Below are positions 15,804 through 21,743 of a stretch of 21,743 bases of DNA, one piece after another. How positions within the stretch are numbered: position 1 is the first letter of the stretch; every line of letters starts with the position of its first letter. Position numbers and translations under genes: made by a program. Source of the stretch: a virus; IMG/VR virus record IMGVR_UViG_3300020407_000014, positions 1-21,743 of that record; one strand, 5' to 3'. The notes under the pieces were generated by a model that had not been told where the DNA came from, did not search any database, and saw only the letters and a program-made list of their open reading frames with translations.

Positions 15804-16091
15804 TTACCCTCTCGCTTTATTTAGCCTTGCTACAATACGACTTGCTGGATTTAATCGTTTTGTTCTCTGTGCTTTCTTCGTCATTCTTGCGCCTTTGGCT
15901 GCTTTTGTTCTTCGCATTACAAATCTCTTTTTGAGATTTATCGGAGCCGCACATTGCGAAGGATTCGCAACTGGCCTCCCTTTACGTGGCCCTACTGTAC
16001 AACGAAATGCTCGTACAACTTTATTTCCTCTTTTACGAAATATTACTTTCGCCTCAGAAATAATAGTATTGTATGATTCATTAAGTAACAT
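15804..16091 (-). CDS. Very basic protein, likely internal head protein
   Basis: The 95 residues are extremely rich in Arg and Lys (for example MRRTKAAKGARMTKKAQRTK), fitting a DNA-binding protein packed with the genome. The N-terminus SYNTIISEAKV (6-16) closely matches the capsid-targeting peptide of T4 internal proteins, TYQEFIAEARV in IPIII as I recall it. Cleavage after the IxE motif (Ile11-Ser12-Glu13) by the gp21-type prohead protease would release the basic body. A conserved-looking core (FRCTVGPRKGRPVANPSQC) has two Cys residues. The start lies 6 bases after the upstream stop, with a GATAAATA box just before it. Confidence 0.75.
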   Translation of the reverse strand: MLLNESYNTIISEAKVIFRKRGNKVVRAFRCTVGPRKGRPVANPSQCAAPINLKKRFVMRRTKAAKGARMTKKAQRTKRLNPASRIVARLNKARG

Positions 16092-16931: not shown

Positions 16932-17666
16932 TTACATACCAGTCATTTTACCAGCTGTATAACCTGCTGCGAAAGCCGCTGCTCCACGTACAATACGTTG
17001 CTTGATTGTTTTCTTTTCTTTTCCATCAATATTTAATCCACCATCTTCAGAATACTTTTTAAATGTTGGCATTAAATCACTACGCCTAGCATTTATTCTA
17101 TAATGTTTGTTTATTTGTGTGGCCGCTAGTTTTTGTTGCGTAGTACTTAGATTAGTCCAATCGCCAACTAACCTTCTTGCTGCTCTCAATTTTGGATCTT
17201 GAATGGCTAACTGTTTTTCTAGTTTATAAAAGAATGCTCTTGCTTGTCCTGGCATTACTTTTCCAGTTTCTAGTTGTTTTAAAAACTGTCTCATCTTAGG
17301 TTGATTTATTTTTATTTTAGCGAGTAATAACTTATCTGCTGGTGTACTGTCAACTAATCCTTCAGGTTTTACAAGTGCAAAAAGTGTTTGGTATACATCT
17401 GTACCACTTGGACTAGCTCTTCCAAACCCGCCATACATACCTGTTCTTCGTGCATATTTTTGTGCTTCTGGAGCATATTTATAATCATTTGCCATAGCAT
17501 AAAGACTCATCAATCCTACAAATAAATGATCTGAGAGCTGTCTAACACCTGAACCTTGTAGCTGATGTTTTGTTTTAAACATACGAGCTTCACCTAGGGA
17601 TTGCATAAATTCTAATCCCTTTTTATTGCTTTCTTCTGAATATTGTTTTACTATATCATTACTCAT
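16932..17666 (-). CDS. Hypothetical basic protein (244 aa)
   Basis: The protein begins MSNDIVKQYSEESNKKGLE. It is helical and basic, with a Tyr/Gly-rich region (about 60-90, YARRTGMYGGFGRASPSG) and a C-terminal Ala/Gly segment (VRGAAAFAAGYTAGKMTGM) that could contact membrane or pack as a glycine-zipper helix. Near the N-terminus, SLGEAR (23-28) contains LxE followed by Ala, a possible prohead-protease site, but such triplets also arise by chance. The start overlaps the upstream gene by four bases (ATGA). No family is recognised. Confidence 0.63.
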   Translation of the reverse strand: MSNDIVKQYSEESNKKGLEFMQSLGEARMFKTKHQLQGSGVRQLSDHLFVGLMSLYAMANDYKYAPEAQKYARRTGMYGGFGRASPSGTDVYQTLFALVKPEGLVDSTPADKLLLAKIKINQPKMRQFLKQLETGKVMPGQARAFFYKLEKQLAIQDPKLRAARRLVGDWTNLSTTQQKLAATQINKHYRINARRSDLMPTFKKYSEDGGLNIDGKEKKTIKQRIVRGAAAFAAGYTAGKMTGM

Positions 17667-17860
17667 ATATTATTCTCTGTTACAATCTTTTTACATGTAT
17701 TTGTTGCATACTTTTTAAACCATCTTGGAAAAAAAGCATGAATAAAAACTGCACATGCTGCCATTTCCATATGGAAAGCAATACTTACTGCATGTTTAAA
17801 GTGTTGCCAACGAGTCATTCCAGCTTCTTCTAAGTGCTGTTTACTCGATTTACTAAACAT
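17663..17860 (-). CDS. Small membrane protein, DUF6356-like
   Basis: The 65 residues begin MFSKSSKQHLEEAGMTRWQH. A short charged head is followed by a moderately hydrophobic segment (about 23-45, ending AVFIHAFFPRWF) and a basic tail with Cys. The signature HxEEAGMTxWQHFxHA, then VFIHAFFP, matches from memory the small DUF6356 family (HPxSVGExYxEH, then HALFP) found in bacteria and marine phages. The function of that family is unknown. AAGGAAAG supplies the ribosome site, overlapping the end of the upstream gene. Inner-membrane location is likely. Confidence 0.7.
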   Translation of the reverse strand: MFSKSSKQHLEEAGMTRWQHFKHAVSIAFHMEMAACAVFIHAFFPRWFKKYATNTCKKIVTENNI

Positions 17861-17861
17861 T

Positions 17862-19058
17862 TTATCTTTCCTTTGCCATATTAGCCGCTGTAAAGCCGGC
17901 TCTATTAACTAATTTAACATCTTTGTCTACTACATACCCTTCGCCGCCTCTTTGGCCTGCTGTGTATGCTTCTATGTCTGCCTTCTGTGCATCCAATGCC
18001 TTAATAACTTCATTTTTTACTTTTTTAATTCCTTTGATAAAATTAAATGTTGCATTAAATCCATCTATATTACTATTTATGTATTCTCCTAGACGTTGTT
18101 TCTTAGGTGCTGACAATTTACTATTATCAACCCATTGCATGAAATCTGAACCTAAGTTATCTAGCCCGCCTGTTTTAACTGATGAATTAATGTATGCATA
18201 TAGTACTTTACCAAAGTCTGCCATTTTTAATTCAGGTGGTACATTAAACAATTTATCAATTGCTCCTGCATTTTTACTTAGGTAATTTTCTAACTCGTCT
18301 ACTGCTGGAATATCTACACCTGGTGATTTTGTTACCATTGCTGGTGGCATAATATAAGTTTGCCCACCTTGAAACTGGCTCATATCTACATTACTTTTTT
18401 GACCGTCTAGTCCAATGGATTGATGTACTACTACGCCAACATCGCTGTTTACTATTTTTTTACCAATGTCGCTTTCAGCATTTACTGCATATGTTGTAGT
18501 ATTTGGCGTGAATGTTATTTTGTTATCTTTTACTTGAGGTTTTGTTAACCAAAGTAAGTCACCATGTACATACCCTCTAAAGCCTGTAGGTACAGTACTT
18601 TCTACTCTGTCCCATATATTTCTCATTTTACTTGCAAATTCTTTACGATCTGGATCTGGTTTTCCTGTACCTCTACTCAATAGCATGTTTTCTAATGCAT
18701 CACTACTAGTAACTTTCCCATCATATCCTTTTGCAGTAAATCCACTTTTGTCAGTGAGTACAAATACACCGTTTTCATTTCGCCCAAAAATAACAGCTGG
18801 TGAGCCGTCCCATTTAATAGTGACTGAATTAGGTTGTTGTTCTACTTGGTGTAATGCGGCAATGGCTTTTTTAGCACCTACACTGCCTGCCTGGCCGTCA
18901 TCAAGGCCTAGAATAAGGTCTTCTAAATGCTGAATTCTAGCATTCTCATTTAGATTTTTTGCTGTTGGAGTATATAAACCTTTACCTTTTAGTCTAATAT
19001 TTCGTAAAATTCTAGGTTTACGTTTTTTAGTTCCGGCTAAAATGTCTTCTATTTTCAT
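17862..19058 (-). CDS. Ligase-like nucleotidyltransferase-fold protein (DUF6267-like)
   Basis: The 398-residue protein carries motifs of the covalent nucleotidyltransferase (DNA/RNA ligase, capping enzyme) superfamily. Motif I is TIKWDGSPAVIFG with Lys82-x-Asp84-Gly85, the usual adenylated lysine. A motif III-like RGYVHGDLLW lies at 161-170, a motif IV-like GEGYVV at 372-377, and a motif V-like VKLVNR at 381-386. Between III and IV are about 200 residues, far more than in simple ligases, so there may be an inserted domain (about 190-360). The basic N-terminus (KKRKPRILRN) could bind nucleic acid. It may match the phage family DUF6267, from memory. Neighbours are late genes, not replication genes. 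Enzyme activity is inference from motifs. Confidence 0.72.
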   Translation of the reverse strand: MKIEDILAGTKKRKPRILRNIRLKGKGLYTPTAKNLNENARIQHLEDLILGLDDGQAGSVGAKKAIAALHQVEQQPNSVTIKWDGSPAVIFGRNENGVFVLTDKSGFTAKGYDGKVTSSDALENMLLSRGTGKPDPDRKEFASKMRNIWDRVESTVPTGFRGYVHGDLLWLTKPQVKDNKITFTPNTTTYAVNAESDIGKKIVNSDVGVVVHQSIGLDGQKSNVDMSQFQGGQTYIMPPAMVTKSPGVDIPAVDELENYLSKNAGAIDKLFNVPPELKMADFGKVLYAYINSSVKTGGLDNLGSDFMQWVDNSKLSAPKKQRLGEYINSNIDGFNATFNFIKGIKKVKNEVIKALDAQKADIEAYTAGQRGGEGYVVDKDVKLVNRAGFTAANMAKER

Positions 19059-19303
19059 TTAGAGCCTCTAATTTTCTTAACACCGCGGTTAAATCTCTCT
19101 GGGTCTCTATTTTTTATACTTAACATGATACGTTTAGTTAGGTCCTGAGCGGTATCATCGTCATAATTAGATTCTATCATTTCTAATATGTTAATAATAC
19201 TACTAATAGCATTATTACCTTTACTTTCTAGTATTGCTGTTTTAGATTTAACAGGTGCTAAAGAATTAATTTCTTCTAATAAGCTACGAGTACGTTTTTT
19301 CAT
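19055..19303 (-). CDS. Hypothetical protein (82 aa), first gene of late block
   Basis: The protein begins MKKRTRSLLEEINSLAPVK and is a basic helical N-terminus followed by an acidic helix (INILEMIESNYDDDTAQDL) and a basic tail (RDPERFNRGVKKIRGSK). From memory similar small proteins occur in marine T4-like phages beside the ligase-like gene. SLLEE at 7-11 includes an LxE triplet. GGGG precedes the ATG at 19303. It overlaps the ligase-like gene by four bases (ATGA), so the two are probably coupled and may work together. Confidence 0.68.
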   Translation of the reverse strand: MKKRTRSLLEEINSLAPVKSKTAILESKGNNAISSIINILEMIESNYDDDTAQDLTKRIMLSIKNRDPERFNRGVKKIRGSK

Positions 19304-19336: not shown

Positions 19337-19344
19337 TATTTATC
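19337..19344 (-). promoter_or_regulatory. Late promoter box (GATAAATA) at replication/late boundary
   Basis: GATAAATAC overlaps the TAG stop of the helicase gene and lies 34 bases before ATG 19303. It matches NATAAATA and stands at the switch from primase/helicase genes to the late block, as expected for a late promoter. Confidence 0.62.
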
Positions 19345-20753
19345 TAACTATTGCTTCTTTTGAGCATACTACGTAATTTGTCATGCCCTTCAATGGTACT
19401 TTCAACAACACTATTTTCTGCAATATTCTTTTCTTGATGTGAAACTTTGTTTTTTGCCTTAATCTTTTCAAACATAGCACTAGAATTACTCATAGTATCG
19501 TGTTTCTCATCTTCGTCTAAGTCACTAATACGTAACCCTGCTATATCAAATTTAAGATCTACTTTATGCCCAACACCACTGCTACTACGTGTTTTCATAA
19601 ATTGTACTTGATAACGCCCACGTTCACGCATCGCTTGACTTGTAAAGATACCAATTACATTATCTGCTGTTTGTACTTTACTTAAACCACCTGCAATGTG
19701 CGAATGATCGTATTCTACTTCTTCTACTGCACCTCTATTTAACTGTGATGCTGTTGCAAACAATATATCATGTTCTACTGCAAAATTACGCATTTCTTCT
19801 GATACAAACTTATCTTTAATATATAAATCACTTGGATTAACTTTACTTTGTGCTGGCATCATAAGATCTAAGTAGTCAATACACATTGCATCAACTTTAA
19901 CATCATTTTTAACTTCGTATTCACGCAAATAACTAGTAATGTTATTAATTGTAATACCGTTTGGAAGTTGTACAATTTGTAGTTTGCCTGCTTTCTTGCC
20001 TTTCATACGTACTTTTAAATCTACATCATCTGCATTTTTAAATACTGTACGAGTATCATATCCAGTAATCATGCTGTCTAATCGCATACTAGATAATTCT
20101 TCACTAAGTTCCAAAGTAATGTATACAACATTTAATCCTGCAACCGACCAATTAAGTGCTAAATTCTGCAAGAACAAACTCTTACCACCACCCGATGGTG
20201 CAGCAAATATGTTTAGTTCGCCTCTATTAAATCCACCAAAAAGTTTTTTATCAATATCTTTCCAACCTGTGCTTACACCACCACGCAAATTACGAACACG
20301 TTCAATACGCTCTGCTGGTGATTCCCAATAGTCAGTACCCATATGTTTAGCCAGTCCAATTTGAACTGCTTCTTTGATTCTTCGTTCAACTGGGCCATAC
20401 TCACCTCGTTCTAGCATGTCTGCACTTGCTAAAATTGCTGCTTCTAATGCTTTATGTTTACAAAATGTTTCAAATTCATCAATAAACCATTTATGATGTC
20501 TATCATCTACATCTTTAAGTTCTTGTAACTCGAGCCCTGTTGCCGCTAGAATTTGCTCACGTGTAGGCAATGCACTATACCCAGTAACATGTTCTTGTAT
20601 AAATGCTACTCCTTTACGTAATTCTCTATCAAAATATAATGGATCTATAATTCCATTAACTCTAGCGAATAGATCTTTATCTTGTGCTAGAAATTCAACA
20701 AACAATCGTTGTAAGTCTACATTATACTCTTTCGCTTGTGACTGTTCTCTCAT
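19344..20753 (-). CDS. 41: Replicative DNA helicase, gp41/DnaB-like
   Basis: This 469-residue protein is a DnaB-family hexameric helicase that unwinds DNA at the phage fork. The N-terminal helical domain (1-140) is followed by the RecA-like motor. Walker A is APSGGGKS (185-192, Lys191), the catalytic Glu215 is in TLELSEE, Walker B is CIDYLD with Asp293, the sensor is SQLNR (336-340), and an arginine finger region is MKTRSSSG (386-393). The charged C-terminal tail is typical for interaction with primase or loader. Its ATG overlaps the primase stop by four bases, so the two primosome subunits are translated together. A possible own promoter lies inside the primase gene. Confidence 0.96.
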   Translation of the reverse strand: MREQSQAKEYNVDLQRLFVEFLAQDKDLFARVNGIIDPLYFDRELRKGVAFIQEHVTGYSALPTREQILAATGLELQELKDVDDRHHKWFIDEFETFCKHKALEAAILASADMLERGEYGPVERRIKEAVQIGLAKHMGTDYWESPAERIERVRNLRGGVSTGWKDIDKKLFGGFNRGELNIFAAPSGGGKSLFLQNLALNWSVAGLNVVYITLELSEELSSMRLDSMITGYDTRTVFKNADDVDLKVRMKGKKAGKLQIVQLPNGITINNITSYLREYEVKNDVKVDAMCIDYLDLMMPAQSKVNPSDLYIKDKFVSEEMRNFAVEHDILFATASQLNRGAVEEVEYDHSHIAGGLSKVQTADNVIGIFTSQAMRERGRYQVQFMKTRSSSGVGHKVDLKFDIAGLRISDLDEDEKHDTMSNSSAMFEKIKAKNKVSHQEKNIAENSVVESTIEGHDKLRSMLKRSNS

Positions 20754-21743
20754 TTACAATATTTCCTCATTAATAATTCAATTTTTGTTGGATTAGTTTC
20801 AGCACTATTTATTATACTCTTTATTGTATACAATCTTCCGTGTTTTGTCAAGGAATCACTTGCATCTTTACAATCTTTCCATTCTGGAAAAGAAACACTC
20901 CAACCGTGCTTTATTGCCGCCTTACACATTAACTTACCTGCTTCATCTGCGTCTGGTAATACAATAATTCGTTTGTTCAAACTGTGCAATATATCTGCTT
21001 GGTCATCATTTATGTTATTACTGCCTATTGCACATCCATCTGTTACTATTGCATCAAGTTGTCCTTCAGATACAATAACAACTTCTTTATTGTGTGTTTG
21101 TCTATCTAAACCATACACAAAATCATTCTTAGGTTGCTGATTATAGTATTTAGGCATTTTTGCAGGAATATTGTCTCCTGCCCATCTTGCTGTATAACCA
21201 ACTACTTTACTTTTATATGTAAACGGCAAAATAAATCTTTTGTTAACTCTACCTTGTTTTTTACTAGGGCTCCACATAAACCTATCATCAGTAATATCAA
21301 ATCCACGATCAGTTAAGTATGTTACCGCGGCTGTCCAATCAGCGTCTGGTTCAGTGAACTCCATAAATGGCTTGGCATCTTCTGGTAGTTCTTTTTCGTC
21401 CCAATCAATAACTAAATTTTTACGCCTTTTAGTTTTTATTAATAAGGTTGCTACATCTTGTTCACGTAACAATTCAAGTTGTATACGTTGTATATCAGCT
21501 TCATCGGCACCTAATGTTGTTAATAGTTGCTTTAATCTTACTGATATTCTACTTTGTGGACTCCAACCTGTTTTAAAGTTACAATTAAAACAATTATACT
21601 GAAACTTTCCTTCATCAAAATGAAATCCGCCTCTGCCTTTTGTATCTGGTCTACTTTGCCCATTCCTTACACACATTGGACAGTTACCACTAATCCAACC
21701 ACTAGGATTAGATCGCCAGTTAGTAGGAACCAGGGCTCTGACG
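20750..21743 (-). CDS. 61: DNA primase, gp61-like (N-terminus outside window)
   Basis: The frame is open from the window edge (first complete codon at 21742-21740), giving 330 visible residues. The ATG at 21676 is internal: the Cys residues of a zinc finger lie on both sides of it (CPMC at 21-24 and CFNC at 51-54 of the visible part), so the true start is beyond 21743. A Toprim domain follows, with Glu226 in VVIVSEGQLDAI and Asp264/Asp266 in VLPDADEAG. Such primases make short RNA primers for lagging strands and pair with the gp41 helicase, encoded next. The stop overlaps the helicase ATG. Confidence 0.94.
   Translation of the reverse strand, partial: VRALVPTNWRSNPSGWISGNCPMCVRNGQSRPDTKGRGGFHFDEGKFQYNCFNCNFKTGWSPQSRISVRLKQLLTTLGADEADIQRIQLELLREQDVATLLIKTKRRKNLVIDWDEKELPEDAKPFMEFTEPDADWTAAVTYLTDRGFDITDDRFMWSPSKKQGRVNKRFILPFTYKSKVVGYTARWAGDNIPAKMPKYYNQQPKNDFVYGLDRQTHNKEVVIVSEGQLDAIVTDGCAIGSNNINDDQADILHSLNKRIIVLPDADEAGKLMCKAAIKHGWSVSFPEWKDCKDASDSLTKHGRLYTIKSIINSAETNPTKIELLMRKYCK
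20823..20851 (-). promoter_or_regulatory. Possible sigma70-like promoter inside primase, for helicase
   Basis: TTGACA (20846-20851), a 17-base spacer and TACAAT (20823-20828) lie within the 3' part of the primase gene. Predicted initiation near 20816 gives a leader of about 63 bases before the helicase ATG. The ten bases TTGACAAAAC are identical to those in the promoter at 1155-1183. Being inside a coding region lowers confidence, but spacing and both boxes fit the other three sites. Confidence 0.5.

Follow-up and report, generated by a model that had tools for sequence, protein, structure and literature searches.

What does a protein do that is catalogued as a family and found in hundreds of marine viruses, so far without an assigned function? 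The question is raised by a gene in IMG/VR record IMGVR_UViG_3300020407_000014, of which we analysed a stretch of 21,743 nucleotides (the whole stretch is called the window below). The first-pass annotation had delimited its open reading frame exactly (Table 1) and had brought up DUF6267 as a family name, which the Pfam model bears out: PF19782 matches the protein over its full length (residues 41-396, E 5e-34) with 118.7 bits against a gathering cut-off of 27. The protein also matches phrog_455, a group of unknown function (E 1e-23), and annotated cyanophage records call the gene T4-GC 71. With the homologue from phage HTVC008M as query, relatives are found in 471 phage records, nearly all of them from cyanophages, with pelagiphages and methylophages in addition, and a pattern search finds the family in more than 600 IMG/VR contigs. 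Matches in cellular genome bins are nearly all to metagenome-assembled bins. DUF6267 is a widespread gene of the Kyanoviridae, found in most ocean T4-like viruses; a literature search for DUF6267 returned no paper that mentions it. Family membership, motif invariance, gene order, fusions, leader statistics and the presence or absence of other ligases, on which the following discussion draws, were computed directly.

Table 1. Features of the DUF6267 gene, its product and its upstream neighbours in the window.
Feature	Position in the window	Strand	Remarks
DUF6267 / T4-GC 71 protein, putative lysyl-nucleotidyltransferase of ligase fold	17862..19058	-	ORF of 398 aa
Basic disordered leader, residues 1-38, ending L36-N37-E38↓N39; candidate prohead-protease (L/I-x-E) and capsid-targeting site	18945..19058	-	pLDDT <50 at residues 9-29
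Motif I KWDG (residues 82-85; K82, predicted nucleotide-accepting lysine)	18804..18815	-	100% conserved in 100 homologues
Motif Ia-like TDKSGF (K104 invariant)	18738..18755	-	100-homologue alignment
Motif III HGDLL (G166 99%, D167 100%; Asp for the usual Glu)	18552..18566	-	100-homologue alignment
Family-specific PNTTTY (P185, N186, Y190)	18489..18506	-	100-homologue alignment
Motif IIIa-like strand VGVVVH (H212 invariant)	18423..18440	-	model and alignment
Helical segment, residues 251-357, between motifs IIIa and IV	17988..18308	-	secondary structure of the model; length varies in the family
Motif IV EGYVV (E373)	17928..17942	-	E, G and V 100% conserved
Motif V VKLVNR (K382, R386; Val for the second Lys of KxK)	17901..17918	-	alignment
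82-aa partner, phrog_11854 virion structural protein	19055..19303	-	ATGA overlap with the DUF6267 start
gp41-like DnaB helicase	19344..20753	-	phrog_19 E 2e-68, DnaB_C E 5e-19; upstream, same orientation
DNA primase, overlapping the helicase ORF	20750..21676	-	phrog_47 E 1e-27, Toprim_2

The proposal that the protein belongs to the ligase and capping enzymes came from four short matches, KWDG at residues 82-85, HGD at 165-167, GEGYVV at 372-377 and VKLVNR at 381-386. All four lie where they had been placed and are far above chance, and the full order of motifs in the protein is I-Ia-III-IIIa-IV-V. We aligned 100 diverse homologues that are 22-79% identical to the window protein, many of them only 22-28%. 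The residues K82, W83, D84, G85, P87, G92, K104, D167, P185, Y190, H212, N291, K348, E373, G374, V376, K382, F389 and N393 are identical in every row, including Lys82 and Glu373, whose conservation had been named as one test of the proposal. H44 is also unvarying, and together with P185, Y190, H212, N291, K348, F389 and N393 it makes up the invariant positions that are specific to the family. The HGD motif holds in part: its glycine and aspartate are conserved, but its histidine is not, being replaced by Q, M, I, V or L elsewhere. The catalytic positions are also kept in mini-homologues of 303-324 residues, including those of P-SSM2, S-SM1 and Syn19.

Measured against the superfamily as a whole, the alignment has KxDG in motif I, an acidic residue (Asp) in motif III and EGxVxx in motif IV. 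Motif V reads K382-x-V-x-R386: the first lysine of the usual KxK is present in all homologues, and the second is absent from all 100, its place being taken by Val or Ile. Both departures from the textbook pattern, the Asp in motif III and the Val or Ile in motif V, are invariant or nearly so. Only 12 residues follow motif V, which leaves no OB fold or any further domain at the C-terminus, and the window protein has neither a PF01068 match nor a C-terminal OB domain with motif VI. One could imagine that the motifs are merely inherited, in a non-catalytic protein that binds nucleic acids or builds the head; the 82-residue partner belongs to a family annotated as virion structural, and the leader suggests a location in the head. 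However, the catalytic positions do not vary over homologues of which many are only 22-28% identical, and since K82, K104, D167, E373 and K382 are held fixed, a purely structural role is not expected. We regard this explanation as very improbable.

The ranking of the predicted structures leans in the same direction as the motifs. AlphaFold2 modelled the window protein with a pLDDT of 89.3 and a pTM of 0.83, and a mini-homologue of 324 residues with 88.0 and 0.84. When the mini model was compared with the PDB by Foldseek, 33 of the 50 best matches were DNA ligases, mRNA guanylyltransferases or RNA ligases, the last including an RNA editing ligase, the Naegleria ligase and the Pnkp/Rnl/Hen1 complex; the other 17 were carbonic anhydrases and MCM/CMG helicases, at a probability of at most 0.04. 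For the window model 10 of the 50 best belong to the superfamily, with a tRNA-ligase adenylyltransferase and DNA ligase 1 in the top list, and in BFVD the next match below its own family is a phage RNA ligase (probability 0.87). By this ranking the models side with ligases rather than with a fold unrelated to nucleotidyltransferases, which would have spoken against the proposal. Nevertheless, neither model has an individually significant match in the PDB (best E 0.12).

Comparison at the level of profiles added little. Searches of the PDB sequences, whether by the protein itself or by a profile built from the 100 homologues, returned nothing but noise (immunoglobulin epsilon, ribosomal eS8). 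In hhalign, motif IV was paired with EGYVAVMKDG of T4 Rnl1 at low probability, over motifs IV-V only (P 0.075), and comparisons with PF09511 and PF09414 or their T4 subfamilies were not significant (P 0.075 and 0.25). Pfam RNA_lig_T4_1 (PF09511) is matched by two of the 100 members, with a best E of 0.01, and a Pfam scan of the window protein up to E 10 yields DUF6267 alone, with no PF01068 and no match to the capping families. For the superfamily assignment itself, the order of the motifs and the ranking of the predicted fold stand, without a significant individual match. On these motifs and this fold we consider that the window protein very probably belongs to the covalent (lysyl) nucleotidyltransferase superfamily, and the best reading of sequence and model is that it represents a divergent, minimal variant of it.

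The long gap between motifs III and IV had been taken for an inserted domain of 200 residues. The distance is indeed 206 residues in the window protein (160-251 across the family); however, the model has ordinary core strands at residues 180-183, 188-193, 207-215 and 234-237, so that the added part comes to about 110 helical residues and not 200. The helical segment is shorter in the natural minis.

The gene had also been assigned to a late block away from replication genes, and here the gene order says otherwise. On the minus strand the order is primase, gp41-like helicase, 82-residue protein and DUF6267, with 41 bp between the helicase frame and that of the 82-residue protein, so that DUF6267 lies directly behind primase and helicase. 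In most isolate phages examined it is likewise near gp41, the exceptions being P-SSM2, whose 303-residue mini is encoded away from the replication block, and C48C1, which shows no gp41 within the stretch that was read. In most of these isolates a cytidylyltransferase-like gene adjoins DUF6267 or lies within a few genes of it. The coupling to the 82-residue partner, which had been inferred earlier, is real as far as the overlap of four nucleotides goes, and this overlap recurs in several relatives; but the partner is confined to part of one clade, and elsewhere a protein of 72-77 residues or a pol-beta enzyme takes its place. Directly downstream of DUF6267 the window encodes a small DUF6356 protein (17663-17860, minus strand; E 2e-13). 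In HTVC008M and DSL-LC02 a variable gene is found just upstream of DUF6267 (L045 4926-5984 and L049 4134-4943); by eye its products carry a pattern like that of PD-(D/E)xK enzymes (KTD...ISLKSG and KTD...CSMKWG), with no support from Pfam.

The position near gp41 raises the possibility that DUF6267 is the missing replicative ligase of marine T4-like phages and joins Okazaki fragments as gp30 does in T4. According to a 2010 review, cyanomyoviruses lack g30 homologues and most of those of rnh, but remote ones might have been overlooked (PMC2984593), and a ligase fold would make DUF6267 a concrete candidate for the ligase missing from these phages. The isolates are in line with this: 14 isolate genomes that carry DUF6267 gave no match to PF01068, PF01653, PF09414 or PF09511, whereas T4 scored for gp30, Rnl1 and Rnl2. 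In isolates DUF6267 may therefore be named a candidate for the missing ligase. However, in four window-type records (G002, G003, G007 and G011) DUF6267 occurs together with a PF01068 DNA ligase of the ordinary kind, and because of them DUF6267 is not solely the missing ligase in the window's clade. The mini of P-SSM2 lies outside the replication block, there is no OB domain, and the same review held the host ligase to be sufficient (PMC2984593). We therefore think it unlikely that the protein is this replicative ligase, and replicative ligation as the general function of the family is weakened by the four window-type records.

The genes that accompany DUF6267 offer a different context. An enzyme of the pol-beta type, with the motif GSxGK...GDID followed by a third Asp, is fused to the N-terminal side of DUF6267 in L235-L242 and L244, and in L215-L217, L220, L234, L243 and L245-L248 it has a gene of its own, which lies upstream and overlaps; its match to the Polbeta model is weak and to the general model only (E 0.004). 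A fusion of DUF6267 with a cytidylyltransferase also occurs; phrog_455 covers both parts, and S-PM2 provides an example. The cytidylyltransferase, which is of the HIGH type and has NMN adenylyltransferases as its best named (weak) relatives, is itself fused to pol-beta-like or PNK/zeta-like kinase domains. Phage sets that combine a pol-beta enzyme, a kinase (PNK), a phosphatase and a ligase have been proposed to follow an RNA-repair logic (PMC7824862). The neighbours thus favour nucleic-acid end processing, and because the partner set resembles this logic, the sealing of nucleic-acid ends is the leading and most likely function, with about an even chance of being correct.

Several observations on these fusions are recorded here in their own right. 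The pol-beta domain that is fused to DUF6267 or encoded beside it in window-type phages has the form GSxGKxxFSGDIDxA (L215-L217, L220, L234, L235-L248; L331, L332), and in G002 and G003 it ends a large Pro/Glu-rich protein and is preceded by [LI]xE↓GG. In S-PM2 (NC_006820.1, 103000-104900; L249) the DUF6267 region consists of two overlapping frames, the second of which runs into the cytidylyltransferase; BFVD entry A0A0M6VVW4, which is from S-PM2 and 591 residues long, matches the DUF6267 model and bears the name cytidyltransferase-like. In L114 (1139-2779) an in-frame domain of about 130 residues (FTRHFMDRVNDARN...) precedes DUF6267 and has a FLAE↓D site of its own where the two meet.

An alternative explanation is that the enzyme is of the capping type, or transfers a nucleotide to a protein or a small molecule (as an AMPylase or NMPylase), and serves the takeover of the host in a role like that of T4 Alt; the NMNAT-like partner would then provide or consume NAD+. 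The Asp in motif III, the single lysine in motif V and the lack of a C-terminal domain make a protein- or small-molecule-directed activity possible; moreover, the NMNAT-like partner, either fused or encoded alongside, has been found in virions, and the protein is predicted to be injected, as with T4 Alt. On the other hand, the company of PNK-like kinases and pol-beta enzymes and the location next to replication genes speak for nucleic acids, and no capping family is matched by sequence. We give this explanation a small chance and retain the sealing of nucleic-acid ends as the preferred reading.

How the protein might reach its substrate is suggested by the N-terminus. Of 49 unique window-type sequences, 48 have [LI]xE immediately ahead of the core, compared with 9% expected from shuffles, a comparison that is not a probability because the sequences are related. 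In one relative the neighbouring pol-beta enzyme begins with a leader identical to that of the window protein at 21 of 37 positions; the local score is 73, and the highest reached by 2,000 shuffles was 51. Pol-beta neighbours have this [LI]xE as well, followed in their case by a domain that is unrelated. When the group is widened to 114 unique N-termini, 25 of them fall in the exact register M..[FYW]..[FYWL][LI].E, that of the T4 IPIII capsid-targeting sequence. With DUF6267 excluded, the register is found in 22 of 856 other neighbouring proteins, including cytidylyltransferases and kinases, where 0.16 would be expected. In T4, gp21 cuts after L/I-x-E, and the first 10 residues of IPIII, among which positions 4, 7, 8 and 10 matter, suffice for packaging (PMC9026906). 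IPIII-like capsid-targeting starts or close variants are also present in proteins near DUF6267 that resemble adenylate kinases, PNK/zeta kinases or HAD proteins (L062 4801-5388, L064 1244-1831, L089 5186-7924, L128 5194-6498 and L133 5785-6537). The window itself encodes a very basic protein of 95 residues (15804-16091, minus strand; start MLLNESYNTIISEAKV; no Pfam match), in which IISE↓A resembles a prohead-protease site.

A natural check is available in two cyanophages. Virions of S-SZBM1 and S-SM1 contain the cytidylyltransferases of these phages (PMC9146016, PMC3037559), whose N-termini read MRFRQFIIE↓A and MKKFSAFLNE↓A, respectively, whereas the DUF6267 protein of S-SZBM1 starts directly at the core, has no leader and is absent from the virion table of that phage. 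This agrees with a link between leader and packaging. However, S-SZBM1 _139 was detected in the virion and has no such leader, and a looser N-terminal pattern is not enriched over the HTVC008M genome (3 found, 2.6 expected); the leader signal was seen among DUF6267 neighbours in uncultured phages. Packaging cannot be universal, since ITE is replaced by ITK in one DUF6267 clade and the cyanophage members lack a leader altogether. A search for virion proteomes brought up none from the window's clade. By analogy with T4 and from the related sequences, there are perhaps equal chances for and against the protein being packaged in the capsid in the window's clade. That the capsid carries a whole end-healing set, with the pol-beta enzyme, the PNK-like kinase, the NMNAT-like adenylyltransferase and the DUF6267 ligase sharing a cleavable leader and being injected with the genome, is a tentative and rather doubtful extension. 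If true, such a set could repair incoming DNA or host-cleaved tRNA from entry onward. A T4-like leader ending in L/I-x-E would also serve as a simple rule for predicting the enzymes that ocean phages carry in their capsids.

Taken together, the protein could be a divergent end-sealing nucleotidyltransferase that is delivered by the capsid in the window's clade, a proposal which may equally well be right or wrong and in which catalysis, substrate, packaging and injection are what we infer. Lys82 would take AMP, or less likely GMP, from a nucleotide, with D167, E373 and K382 holding the metal and the phosphates; the nucleotide would then be handed on to an end that bears a 5'-phosphate, most probably that of a broken nucleic acid, which would be sealed. 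Marine T4-like phages would draw on a mix-and-match set of DUF6267, the pol-beta-type nucleotidyltransferase, the HIGH-type NMN-adenylyl- or cytidylyltransferase and PNK- or AK-like kinases, in which, in parallel to known repair logic, pol-beta may restore lost bases, the kinase heal 5' ends and the ligase seal. In the window's clade the leader would send the protein into the prohead and be cut off after L36-N-E38, and the packaged protein, entering the cell with the DNA, could act at once.

Compared with known systems, the window protein belongs to the same family as PF19782, T4-GC 71 and phrog_455 over its full length, although the window type adds a leader of about 38 residues to what is seen in cyanophage members, and identity to these falls to about 25%. 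With T4 gp30 (PF01068) it probably shares the nucleotidyltransferase core fold, as judged by Foldseek rank, but it has no OB domain or family match and coexists with a PF01068 ligase in window-type phages. The order of motifs is like that of T4 RNA ligase 1 (gp63, PF09511), whose spacing between motifs IV and V equals that of the HTVC008M homologue (13 residues), and like that of the adenylyltransferase domain of Trl1-type tRNA ligases, and tRNA ligases are among the top structural matches; from both it differs in a longer helical region between motifs IIIa and IV, in KxV for KxK, in having no C-terminal domain and in the lack of a significant profile match. The RlaP, Pnkp and Rnl sets (PMC7824862) likewise combine pol-beta, a PNK-like kinase and a ligase-like enzyme, fused or neighbouring, but DUF6267 is not a known Rnl family and the match of its pol-beta partner is weak. 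The window-type leader, a candidate capsid-targeting signal, is basic, about 38 residues long and of a different sequence from those of the T4 internal proteins. Nevertheless, it resembles the capsid-targeting sequence and gp21 site of T4 IPI-III and Alt in being N-terminal and ending in L/I-x-E, and the exact capsid-targeting register of IPIII is common to many DUF6267 relatives and neighbours.
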